NCBI RefSeq assembly: GCF_020164595.1
Contig: NZ_JAIQZE010000009.1
Coordinates: 1 to 64,000, forward strand
Length of the DNA: 64,000 nt
From: Psychroflexus longus
GTDB lineage: Bacteria > Bacteroidota > Bacteroidia > Flavobacteriales > Flavobacteriaceae
Reading direction: 5' to 3'
The notes under the pieces were generated by a model. It saw only the letters and a program-made list of their open reading frames with translations, was not told the DNA's origin and did not search any database. The position numbers and the translations under genes are program-made. Shown here one piece after another: positions 59,877 to 64,000 of the stretch (positions are counted from its first letter, which is position 1; every line of letters starts with the position of its first letter).

Positions 59877-60620
59877 ATGCTATACGGAATTTGTCCCCTA
59901 AGTGTTGTTCCTGTGAGAGCAGAAGCAAGCGACTCTTCAGAAATGGTTACTCAGCTACTTTATGGAGATCATTTTGAAGTAATCGAAACACAACCTAAAT
60001 GGCTTAAAATTCGTATAGCTTTTGACAATTATGAGGGCTGGTTGGATAAAAAACAGGCTTTTGAAATTGATGAAGAAAATTTCAAAAACCTCCATAAAAA
60101 GAATGAATATTCTACAGATTTATTGAGTTTAATGACTACCGCAAATGGACAATTAATGCCCGTTTGTATTGGGTCTTCGATTCACTCCTCAACACTTCTT
60201 AGACATCAGTTTGATGGAGCCATTAATAAAAATTACACAAAAAACCATTTAGTAGATACTGCCATGCTTTATCTGAATTCTCCCTATTTATGGGGTGGGA
60301 AATCTCCATTTGGAATAGATTGCAGTGGATTTGTACAAATGGTTTACAAAATAAGTGGTATCCAATTATACCGAGATGCTTATGAACAAGCCAAGCAAGG
60401 TCAGGCGCTTTCATTTATCGAAGAAAGTGAGCCAGGTGACCTTGCTTTTTTTGATAATGAAGAAGGGAAAATAATTCACGTTGGGATTATGATGAAAGAT
60501 AATTATATCATTCACGCCCATGGACAAGTCCGAATAGATAGGATAGATCACTCTGGTATCTTCAATGTTGAAAGCGGTCGCTATTCACACAACTTGAGAG
60601 TGATCAAGAAAATAGTTTAG
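59877..60620 (+). CDS. NlpC/P60 (C40) peptidase with SH3-like region
   Basis: The 247-residue protein lacks a signal peptide. An SH3b-like region (about residues 1-120; VVPVRAEASDSSEMVTQLLYGD) precedes the catalytic NlpC/P60 domain. Cys149 lies in GIDCSGFVQMVY, His201 in IIHVGIMM, and the third polar residue is His213 in IIHAHGQVRI. It is likely a gamma-D-glutamyl-diamino acid endopeptidase that recycles peptidoglycan peptides, similar to YkfC. Because no signal was found, a cytoplasmic role is likely. An earlier in-frame start at 59814 overlaps the thiolase gene and was rejected. Its stop overlaps the next convergent gene by three to four bases. Confidence 0.88.
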   Translation: MLYGICPLSVVPVRAEASDSSEMVTQLLYGDHFEVIETQPKWLKIRIAFDNYEGWLDKKQAFEIDEENFKNLHKKNEYSTDLLSLMTTANGQLMPVCIGSSIHSSTLLRHQFDGAINKNYTKNHLVDTAMLYLNSPYLWGGKSPFGIDCSGFVQMVYKISGIQLYRDAYEQAKQGQALSFIEESEPGDLAFFDNEEGKIIHVGIMMKDNYIIHAHGQVRIDRIDHSGIFNVESGRYSHNLRVIKKIV

Positions 60621-63600
60621 AACTTTGCTCCAAAGCCGAAAGAAAACCAAAATCCGTCGTCGCTATGGAAGAAATTGAAAGTGCCCGAAAACAAATCAGC
60701 GCCATTCACCCAAAAACCTAAACCATAATCGTTTTGCCACTGATTGGACTCTGGAACGTCGGACCATACTCTACCAACATCAAAACCTCCAAAGATTCCA
60801 AACTGAAGCGGAATGAAACTCGTCTTAATTGGATTGAAACTGTGTCTTAGATCTATATTACCGACCAGACTTTCTCTTCCTATAAATCGATCTCTTCTAA
60901 AACCTCTTAGCCCATTTCTGGCTCCTAGAATTGCTCCCTGATAAAATTCATAATCATCATTAAAGATCAATTGAGAAGTAGCTTTGGTTCTTAATACCCA
61001 TTTCTGGTCATTTGAAATAGCATTATAAAACTCCAAATGCGGATTCAGAAAAACAAAATGCTTATCTACGTCTTTAGTATTCATTGTAGCTCCAAGTTCA
61101 ACTTTGAAATCCATACCCCGTTTTGGATTAAGTTCATCATCAAAACTGTGATACTGATAAGACGATTGGTAAGAAACAAAGTTTTTTGAATCAAAGAAGA
61201 TTGGATTATTGCTGAGCAACTCATCACCTACTAAGTCTATAAACCTGCCTTGAGTTCTTTCTACATCATAATTTTGAAAAGAAACTTTATTTTCAAAAAT
61301 GCTACCATATTTCGATGCTCTTCGAAGACCCAATTCAAATTCAAATTTTCTAATTTTTACACGATTAAAATTTCTTACAACATCATTATCAAAATATTCA
61401 GAATCATTTCCGAAGCCAAAAAAGTTCCTGGCGAAATTTGGACTTGTATACTCCAAAGAAGTGAAAAGATTGTGCTTACCTATAAGGTTAGCAAACTCAC
61501 CTTCGTAACCTACATCAAAGCCTCCGGTTGCGGTATAAATACCAGCTTTAATTTTGTGTTTGTAAGTGAAAGGATTTAATTGAAAGCCATTATAACCGAG
61601 TGACGCTTGAGCTCCAAATAACAATCCATCATCTGGATTAAAGCCTAAACGCGGTAAAAACGAACTTGTCCAGTTGATACTCCTATCTTTATCAAAAGTA
61701 TTGACCACATAATTATCGGTTCTAATCACTCGACCTCCTTTCTTTTCTACTATTGAATTTTCTAAAGTTTTGTGATCGTAAACTCTGACTTTTTTTCCAG
61801 CTTTAAGAGCGTAAAAATCACTATCATGACCACCTATGAGTCTAACCTTAATTTTTGCTGGATAATCTCCAGAAACAGTAAACGTATCTTCATCATCTAA
61901 ACCATAAATCCATATTTCTTTGGTGTATCTATCATCAAAGACTTTGTCAACAATTGTGTTTTTGCGGTCACCTTTTATATCCCGCATAATTTTCACTCTT
62001 GTTTGTCCATTTTCCTGACGATAGACATCTATAAAGTCATCTTTATCTGTAGCCGTTAAAACCGAAACTTCACTTATAATGTCATAATACTGATCAGCAT
62101 AATTTACCAAATGACCTAATCTAGATTCGAAAATTGAAATGAGGGTTTTTGTTTTTTCCTTGTTGATTTCTTCCGGTAGTTTAGAAAAAGCCTTTTGAAT
62201 CACTTCATCTGTTAAATGCTCTTGAATGTATTTAGCTTCTTTAACCCAATCTTCCTTGGTAGCATTTCTGATAATCATTCTGTCTAAACTCAAGCCAGAA
62301 GTATTTAAACCTTTTAGATTCTCAATGTCTCCAGTGTAAGGTTGAAATTTTTTGGGAGCAGAACTTATTGTTCTCAGCACATTAAAAAATCCACCATCAA
62401 AATTGGCAAAAACCTGATCTCTATCTCGAGGAATAGGTTTAAAAATTCTATCACCATTTTCAAGTTCGAATTCGGACCAGCGCCATTGGTCCTCATGCCT
62501 GTCCCAATCGCCTAAAAGCATATCAAATAATCGAGCCCTTAGATAATTGGATTCATCGAGCTTATATTTTTCATCCCTTCTCAAGCGCTCTATCATGTCA
62601 GCAGTGCTTACAATATCATGATTGGGATTCCCAAAAACATCAGTACCCATCCAATGCTCCTCTGGACGTTCTTCAATCATATATAATTGATTACCGTGTA
62701 CTTGGTTAAATTTTCCCAATGCCTTTTGTTTGGGAATATATACCAATTGAGGATTGGTGTGGTATACCCCGATAGCATCGGATAAATCCGGTATTGCCAT
62801 GAACCCAAAAGGATGGGCGGCGGTCAGAAAATCAAGAAGTGCTTCTTGTACAACTGTATCATCAAATTCATTATACAGGTTTTTATCAGGATAAACAAAC
62901 TGCTGAAGCAATCTTACAGCATCTTTTCTGATTTGTCTTATATTATATTCTCTGCCGTTTTTATCATTGAGTCGAAGAGAATTGGTTTGCATCCCACCTC
63001 CCATTCGCATCGACTCCAAACCCCCGTAAGCAGTATCTATCTTCAACACGGGAACTGTGATCTGGCGAGTGTACAGGTCTCTGTAATGCTGACCCCAAAC
63101 GCTTTCATAAAAACCTGTTCTATCGGTTTTTACATCTTCATATACTGAAGTAGTAACTGTTTCTGGGAAATTTTCAGGAAGACTTTCCAGGTCATAATTC
63201 TTTTCCCCTTCATAAATTTCTGTTTGAAAAATAAGTTCAGGTTCTTTATTATCTGCAGAATAAAATTGGACCCATGAAGAGCCATCATCAAAAACATCAA
63301 ACACTGCAAAACCATAACCCGGATAAGCAAACACTCCGTCAAGCCCTAATTTAGCATAAGACTTTTTGGAGCCAGATCCGGAAACAATCTGCTTGATCTT
63401 ATCATGCTCTATGTATTGCAAACTATGTTCATGTCCCGATGCAAAAACCACTCTATTCCAGCGACTGGCTATTGCTGAAATTCGTTTGACCATAGATTGG
63501 TATTGATTGTTCTGCGTATCTTGAACTGAAACTCCACCGGAAACCCTTATTAGAGTAGCCAAAGAAGCTAAGCCAGGCAAAGGGAATTTTCGTTGTGATG

Positions 63601-64000
63601 GAAACAAGTGCTTTGAGAATTCATAAGTCCCTCCATGAACTCCGTTGGTATAAAGCGGGTGATGTAAAGCAACAAGTGTAGTTTTATTTTGATTTTTTTT
63701 CAGTTCCGTTTCAAATTCCTCGTAGAATTGATCCAGAGTTTTGATTTCATCACAATTTCTATTGATCAGAGGATTTTGATCCCAGTTAGCAAGAATCCAT
63801 TGTGAATCCAAAATAATAAGATGAACATCATCTGAAATATCCACAGATGATAGTCCGCATCCGGGATTTGGCAACCAGGGTTCATCCTGGTCTGTCAAAA
63901 CTTTCTTGATTTGTTTTTCTTGATTCTCTAAAGACTGTATCCCCTCAGAATACCAATCGTGATTTCCTGGAATAAAATGAACATCACCTTCAAAAAAGGT
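60617..64000 (-). CDS. Calcineurin-like phosphoesterase with middle kinase-like region and C-terminal outer-membrane barrel (5' end missing)
   Basis: The visible 1128 codons run through the window edge without a stop, so the N-terminus is missing. The first residues contain GNHDW (residues 12-16), a metallophosphatase signature, followed by HHPLYTNGVHGG and ASGHEHSLQYIE in order. A long middle region (about 335-610) holds a segment LFDMLLGDWDRHEDQW followed by PIPRDRDQVF, which resembles the catalytic and magnesium loops of Fam20C/HipA-like kinases. From about residue 770 to the end (ending FWFSFGFGAKF) the chain resembles an outer-membrane beta barrel. The phosphatase part belongs to a known Bacteroidota group with large C-terminal extensions; the kinase reading is inference. 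Confidence 0.78.
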   Translation of the reverse strand, partial: TFFEGDVHFIPGNHDWYSEGIQSLENQEKQIKKVLTDQDEPWLPNPGCGLSSVDISDDVHLIILDSQWILANWDQNPLINRNCDEIKTLDQFYEEFETELKKNQNKTTLVALHHPLYTNGVHGGTYEFSKHLFPSQRKFPLPGLASLATLIRVSGGVSVQDTQNNQYQSMVKRISAIASRWNRVVFASGHEHSLQYIEHDKIKQIVSGSGSKKSYAKLGLDGVFAYPGYGFAVFDVFDDGSSWVQFYSADNKEPELIFQTEIYEGEKNYDLESLPENFPETVTTSVYEDVKTDRTGFYESVWGQHYRDLYTRQITVPVLKIDTAYGGLESMRMGGGMQTNSLRLNDKNGREYNIRQIRKDAVRLLQQFVYPDKNLYNEFDDTVVQEALLDFLTAAHPFGFMAIPDLSDAIGVYHTNPQLVYIPKQKALGKFNQVHGNQLYMIEERPEEHWMGTDVFGNPNHDIVSTADMIERLRRDEKYKLDESNYLRARLFDMLLGDWDRHEDQWRWSEFELENGDRIFKPIPRDRDQVFANFDGGFFNVLRTISSAPKKFQPYTGDIENLKGLNTSGLSLDRMIIRNATKEDWVKEAKYIQEHLTDEVIQKAFSKLPEEINKEKTKTLISIFESRLGHLVNYADQYYDIISEVSVLTATDKDDFIDVYRQENGQTRVKIMRDIKGDRKNTIVDKVFDDRYTKEIWIYGLDDEDTFTVSGDYPAKIKVRLIGGHDSDFYALKAGKKVRVYDHKTLENSIVEKKGGRVIRTDNYVVNTFDKDRSINWTSSFLPRLGFNPDDGLLFGAQASLGYNGFQLNPFTYKHKIKAGIYTATGGFDVGYEGEFANLIGKHNLFTSLEYTSPNFARNFFGFGNDSEYFDNDVVRNFNRVKIRKFEFELGLRRASKYGSIFENKVSFQNYDVERTQGRFIDLVGDELLSNNPIFFDSKNFVSYQSSYQYHSFDDELNPKRGMDFKVELGATMNTKDVDKHFVFLNPHLEFYNAISNDQKWVLRTKATSQLIFNDDYEFYQGAILGARNGLRGFRRDRFIGRESLVGNIDLRHSFNPIKTSFIPLQFGIFGGFDVGRVWSDVPESNQWQNDYGLGFWVNGADLFSGTFNFFHSDDGFWFSFGFGAKF

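Follow-up and report, generated by a model that had tools for sequence, protein, structure and literature searches.

The kinase-fold domain described here is closest, by both profile and fold, to CtkA of Helicobacter pylori (PDB 3akj, 3akk and 3akl), and the DRH catalytic loops of the two align. The CtkA chain is 325 aa long, has neither a phosphoesterase nor a barrel, and shares 10-11% aa identity with our domain in the Foldseek alignment; the aligned CtkA loop has Asn where our domain has Gln619, and in our domain a DRD loop follows. HipA (PF07804) likewise has its catalytic loop in register with the domain; HipA is a cytoplasmic toxin-antitoxin kinase, whereas the domain studied here is exported. 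In CotH (PF08757), hhalign aligns an IPYDYDNT stretch with PIPRDRDQ of our domain, and both CotH and Fam20C kinases have domain partners different from those found here. A CotH study (PMC7821199) reports the forms D228Q and D251A as catalytically inactive; we infer that D228 and D251 correspond to Asp614 and Asp640.

Heinz and Lithgow 2014 (PMC4104836) named an Omp85 "Metallo" group with PF00149, a domain to which they refer as a metalloprotease, and the word "kinase" has 0 occurrences in their main text; the combination of a phosphoesterase with an Omp85 barrel is already described there, and the kinase-fold domain is unmentioned in that text. The "Metallo" subfamily shares PF00149 and an Omp85 barrel with our protein, and it probably comprises the same proteins as the family studied here. 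In the open-licence literature, our searches turned up no report of Omp85 proteins with a kinase, and term counts in Bacteroidota BAM and TamL papers found kinase and phosphoesterase unmentioned.

The window (the whole 64,000-nucleotide stretch of Psychroflexus longus DNA analyzed here, on contig C43) ends within a minus-strand gene whose whole product is 1241 aa long (contig C43 complement 60617-64342). From the N terminus to the C terminus, this product consists of a lipoprotein-type signal, a calcineurin-like phosphoesterase, a kinase-fold region, a linker built from short strands, and finally a barrel, with the following features:

60617..64000, minus strand: phosphoesterase-kinase-link-barrel gene (residues 1-114 lie outside the window, at contig C43 64001-64342)
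63203..64000, minus strand: in-window part of the calcineurin-like phosphoesterase domain, residues 115-380 (PF00149, E 1.5e-6, above cutoff)
62108..63100, minus strand: predicted kinase-fold domain, about residues 415-745 (AlphaFold2, Foldseek, CtkA profile match, standalone copies)
62993..63001, minus strand: Gly-rich loop GGG, residues 448-450, where the first N-lobe strand ends (same in 79/79)
62924..62938, minus strand: Arg469 to Lys473, at and just past the third strand (both invariant, 79/79)
62483..62512, minus strand: catalytic-loop stretch GDWDRHEDQW, residues 611-620 (aligns with CtkA, HipA and CotH)
62408..62437, minus strand: metal-loop stretch PIPRDRDQVF, residues 636-645, with Asp640 and Asp642 (aligns with the CotH IPYDYDNT stretch)
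61688..62050, minus strand: linker domain composed of short strands, approximately residues 765-885 (also found after the kinase domain in barrel-less lipoproteins)
60626..61675, minus strand: sixteen-strand Omp85-type barrel, residues 890-1239, with LRG[YF] at 1145-1148 (model, Foldseek)

Because the window edge cuts off the first 114 residues, residue numbers in the sequence-only reading of this DNA need +114; Lys359, Asp500, Asp526 and Asp528 thereby become Lys473, Asp614, Asp640 and Asp642. All five motifs quoted in that reading lie in this minus-strand ORF (NIRQIRKDA at 62944-62918, VVQEALLDFL at 62854-62825, QLVYIPKQKALG at 62749-62714, GDWDRHEDQW at 62512-62483 and PIPRDRDQVF at 62437-62408). 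The interval it assigned to the kinase-like region, 62170..62998, lies inside the kinase-fold region and is too narrow, as the domain extends over about residues 415-745 (63100-62108). Its placement of the domain between a calcineurin-type phosphoesterase and a C-terminal barrel agrees with the PF00149 match and the 16-strand Omp85-type barrel. Its assignment of QLVYIPKQKALG as the hinge does not hold in the AlphaFold2 model, in which this segment forms the strand before QLYMIEE (residues 552-558) and the start of a helix; the hinge is expected after QLYMIEE.

The sequence-only reading had proposed a kinase-like fold and had set structure prediction followed by a structural search beforehand as the check. 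AlphaFold2 modeled residues 395-775 from an alignment of the window protein and 74 relatives (4/78 usable loci were left out) with a mean pLDDT of 89.6 and a pTM of 0.89. The domain is predicted to have a two-lobed protein-kinase-like fold, with a five-strand N-lobe and a helical C-lobe; the predicted order is the Gly-loop strand, two strands, helices, two strands, and a helical lobe that carries the DRH and DRD loops. A Foldseek search of the PDB returned 476 matches, 12 of them at E ≤0.001. The best 50 of the 476 are kinase folds, judged from their descriptions or, for MSMEG_1954, Rv3197, YihE, mdt and a pre-40S chain, from their names. The top match was CtkA (E 6.9e-5, probability 1.00), HipA was seventh, and Rio2 and ADCK3 were among the best 50. 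The CtkA superposition is modest (TM-score 0.39 by query and 0.51 by target, rmsd 8.8).

A profile search with the region alone, also suggested by that reading, agrees with the model. A profile built from 23 relatives reached CtkA in the PDB (E 2e-4) with the DRH catalytic loops aligned, and further matches were at 0.49 or worse; this match is independent of the structure model. Using hhalign, we aligned the catalytic loop with that of HipA (P 7e-4), a resemblance that the sequence-only reading had also proposed, and the catalytic and DxD loops with those of CotH (P 8e-4); the HHalign probabilities are low (25-27%), and eight controls (three with domains that are unrelated, five with the profile reversed, one for each target) were at P 0.017 or worse. 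The profile for this comparison held 155 relatives, 100 of which were left after hhalign's own filter, and the HipA rows were from 26/30 loci selected by an H.KN pattern; a first, smaller HipA comparison, with 23 sequences on one side and 18 on the other, reached P 0.012 at a probability of 3.6%, and global mode gave no useful alignment. Plain sequence searches of Pfam, NCBIfam and the PDB with the protein returned nothing usable for the kinase-fold region. Across the 23 members, the best Pfam match of any was Fam20C (PF06702; E 7.4e-4), in 1/23; HipA_C (PF07804) had no clear Pfam match (best E 0.23, in 2/23), and CotH (PF08757) was absent from the 23 families listed in a Pfam scan at E up to 1. 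We regard the kinase fold alone, as modeled, as nearly certain. PADLOC gave a weak match to PDC-M03A (E 0.005, residues 592-620). A Pfam match to CaM_binding (E 0.019) was below cutoff and was taken as chance.

The residues expected of a kinase site do not vary freely among relatives. Of the two outcomes that the sequence-only reading had named as refuting it, a model lacking a two-lobed kinase fold and free variation of the Lys and Asp residues, neither was obtained. We fetched at least 79 loci by a contig scan with DRH- and DRD-loop patterns and kept frames with GD[WF]DRH; in the resulting set (the window protein and 78 relatives), Gly448-450, Arg469, Lys473, Asp607, Gln619, Trp620, Asp640, Arg641 and Asp642 are the same in 79/79, and Gln452 and Ser455 are kept in 76/79. 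Asp612, Asp614, Arg615 and His616 are 79/79 by construction, because frames were selected by GD[WF]DRH, and the DRD loop was favored by the scan patterns; Lys473, Arg469 and the Gly loop were in neither filter. The filter removed one of the 79 loci (L104), in which Asp replaces His616 and the rest is intact. In 86 rows found without motif patterns, which include fragments and come in many cases from related genomes, Lys473 is present in 81 of the 82 rows with a letter at that position, Asp614 in 79/84, Asp640 in 81/84 and Asp642 in 80/84; the Gly loop is nearly invariant there as well. The motif is lost in four divergent members of this set (L177, L178, L188 and L189), two lipoproteins (L170 and L171) have DSRR, and single changes occur elsewhere, for example in L176 (Gln619 to Asn) and L186 (Gly450 to Lys). 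A Gly-rich loop, a catalytic Asp and a metal-binding Asp are all present; Gln619 stands at the place of the usual metal-binding Asn, and the role of the usual strand-3 Lys could fall to either of two invariant residues, Arg469 and Lys473. The kinase domain is also the most conserved of the four, with a mean pairwise identity of 0.537 compared with 0.497, 0.480 and 0.459 for the others in 75 selected rows, and 0.476 compared with 0.441, 0.401 and 0.386 in a set of 58 proteins not picked by motif.

Two loci carry clusters of kinase-link genes, three in L170:2129-7148 and two in L171:2436-5775. In each cluster, one member carries DSRR in place of DDRH and its Gly loop is changed as well, a pattern like that of a kinase-pseudokinase set.

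The phosphoesterase domain has Asn127, His128, His228, His304 and His306 within the window and Asp50, Asp85 and Tyr88 beyond its edge, which gives DDYNHHHH at the eight ligand positions. We take DxG, GDxxY, GNHD, HH and GHxH, a set present in the window protein, to be purple-acid-phosphatase-like ligand motifs; a PDB search gave weak matches to purple acid phosphatases (E 0.6-1). Among the 75 gap-free rows of the 79, seven have altered phosphoesterase ligands with an intact kinase site, and two (L101 and L125) of the four gapped rows set aside were likewise altered on realignment. Of the 58 full-length proteins collected without regard to the motif, 53 have both sites intact, 4 have an altered phosphoesterase, and 1 differs at Gly450 only.

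Tandem copies occurred in eight fetched loci and were complementary in six (Marixanthomonas, three Aequorivita, Altibacter and the MAG UBA3356). In each complementary pair, one copy has lost phosphoesterase ligands and has an intact kinase site, and the other has the ligands (8/8 on complete copies) and changes at the Gly loop, His616, Gln619 and Asp640. The remaining two tandem loci (L088 and L090) are not complementary, as each combines a copy in which both sites are present with one that has lost phosphoesterase residues only.

We then surveyed copies in 29 genomes, of which 11 were picked for tandem or phosphoesterase-lost copies, 10 were both-site controls, 7 were others and one was that of the window; three matched places (G437:C148, G445:C1 and G445:C9) were left out. 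Of the 59 copies that combine both enzyme domains with a barrel, 23 retain the two sites, 26 retain the kinase site alone, 6 retain the phosphoesterase site alone and 3 retain neither in full (two of these differ by one kinase residue); 1 was unassigned. On a quick tree from the link and barrel columns, the phosphoesterase state requires at least 7 changes and the kinase state at least 3. All six copies without the kinase site fall into one clade and so represent one event, kept in six genomes. All 6 adjoin a copy of the reverse pattern, and they were seen because they are adjacent to a kinase-intact copy; the pattern scan would miss a kinase-lost copy with no kinase-intact copy nearby. The fair test is provided by nine genomes picked for a phosphoesterase-lost copy, and 9/9 have another copy with all eight ligands. 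Three more such genomes include two (G002 and G096) with a full-ligand copy and one (G016) without, whose assembly has about 300 contigs and a further fragment. Together, the complementary tandem copies and the full-ligand partner copies suggest that both sites are in use and that they belong to one pathway, and the complementary losses lend indirect support to the opposing kinase and phosphatase-like activities that the sequence-only reading had suggested. At L280 and L290 (G002:C24 65618-68943), a copy that had already lost its phosphoesterase residues is interrupted inside the kinase domain.

AlphaFold2 modeled residues 116-1241 from 46 sequences (32/77 loci were left out) with a pLDDT of 86.4, a pTM of 0.83 and 16 barrel strands. 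The best 50 of 686 Foldseek matches are BamA or TamA structures, and NCBIfam NF047779 (Omp85_fam) matched with E 2.8e-18 and 66.6 bits against a curated cutoff of 200. Each place of LRG[YF], at 1145-1148, is conserved in 74-78 of the 79 proteins, and the sequence fits [VL]RG[YF], the Omp85 loop-6 motif. A Pfam scan of residues 116-1241 identified no POTRA family, and a diverged POTRA could escape such a scan. Under a strict filter, 67/164 phosphoesterase-to-barrel forms have a lipoprotein signal, and the four residues after the lipoprotein Cys include no acidic residue in 47/67 and one in 20. Omp85 barrels start on the periplasmic side. The lack of an acidic export motif after the Cys and the start side of the barrel make a periplasmic position more likely than the surface position that had been assumed for this protein, and the kinase and phosphoesterase domains are probably on the periplasmic side.

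Based on these results, we propose that the kinase-fold domain represents an undescribed family, with CtkA, HipA and CotH as the nearest known kinases, that it is probably active and would modify a target in the envelope, at the periplasmic face of the outer membrane, and that the purple-acid-phosphatase-like domain would act in the same pathway, most simply by removing what the kinase adds, with the Omp85-type barrel anchoring the pair. Taken as one claim, the fold plus catalysis plus pairing seems to us somewhat more likely than not; here, catalysis, the periplasmic side and the shared pathway are what we infer. Somewhat short of an even chance, we tentatively suggest that an undescribed exported kinase family in Bacteroidota forms a phosphorylation/dephosphorylation switch in one outer-membrane Omp85-type protein, and that a duplicated lineage kept one copy per activity, with the pair acting on a common envelope target. 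An outer-membrane kinase, if true, would need a phosphate donor there. The complementary tandem copies of Aequorivita and relatives, with each active-site set on its own protein, would be a natural experiment.

To our knowledge, the periplasm would not be expected to contain free ATP and bacterial kinases outside the cytosol are few, and periplasmic ATP being unlikely would suit a pseudokinase, that is, a kinase-fold scaffold or nucleotide sensor without phosphotransfer; so would the loss of the motif in some relatives and the DSRR copies beside intact ones in the lipoprotein clusters L170 and L171. We nevertheless consider it unlikely, as the Gly loop, the Lys and the DRD Asp residues are invariant together in 79/79, and copies that have lost the phosphoesterase mostly keep the kinase site (26/59), which argues that this site is not there only to regulate the phosphoesterase in cis. 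In addition, the kinase-lost clade alters the Gly loop, His616, Gln619 and Asp640 together, as a catalytic set would. A different nucleotide reaction (e.g., AMPylation), or phosphorylation of a lipid, glycan or small molecule instead of a protein, overlaps with our preferred explanation and is an appreciable possibility, if well under an even chance. Some relatives with a kinase fold, such as SelO and Fam20B, carry out reactions of this kind, a lipid or glycan as target would fit the outer-membrane setting, and Gln619 and Trp620 depart from the usual kinase catalytic loop; however, CtkA and HipA, the nearest relatives by profile and fold, are protein kinases, which leaves the substrate undecided.

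An alternative that concerns location is a type Vd-like autotransporter, in which the barrel would carry both enzyme domains to the cell surface. The enzyme domains do lie ahead of an Omp85-type barrel, as in PlpD, and this option is named for the Metallo group by Heinz and Lithgow (PMC4104836). Such export appears unlikely given the lipoprotein signals with at most one acidic residue after the Cys, the Pfam scan that identified no POTRA family, and the existence of membrane-anchored and lipoprotein forms without a barrel.

In the stretches chosen for this survey, the domain occurs in four main arrangements: a phosphoesterase-kinase-link-barrel form of about 1240-1390 aa; a form of about 870-1030 aa in which the kinase is fused directly to the link and barrel; a kinase-link form of about 500-590 aa, sometimes with a lipoprotein signal; and a membrane-anchored kinase-only form of about 430 aa. 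With a crude filter, a lipobox or hydrophobic N-terminal segment was identified in 155/164 full forms, 9/9 kinase-only forms and 7/7 kinase-link forms. In a phylum search, the kinase-fold domain was present in 114/296 Bacteroidota genomes; the family is common, and we found no Pfam or NCBIfam family for it. Five plasmid records (Hymenobacter, Persicobacter and Parabacteroides) also carry the domain.

In 46/80 loci, including that of the window, the barrel gene has a divergent HD-PycTM gene ≤400 bases upstream; at the window locus, the HD-PycTM gene encodes a fusion of an HD domain and a Pycsar-effector membrane domain (PycTM, E 4e-37) just outside the window (L002:4383-5561, equivalent to contig C43 64382-65560); two "HD down" rows in this neighbor count look like overlapping frames. 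A small lipoprotein-like gene (L086:8826-9629), whose product has weak phytase-like and NHL matches, is convergent with the barrel gene at ≤400 bases in 28/80 loci. Across the 80 loci, neither the HD-PycTM nor the small lipoprotein neighbor points to a substrate. A third gene (L002:6684-9053) encodes a 789-aa protein with no Pfam match over cutoff, and its relatives are found upstream, on the same strand, in 45/80 loci.
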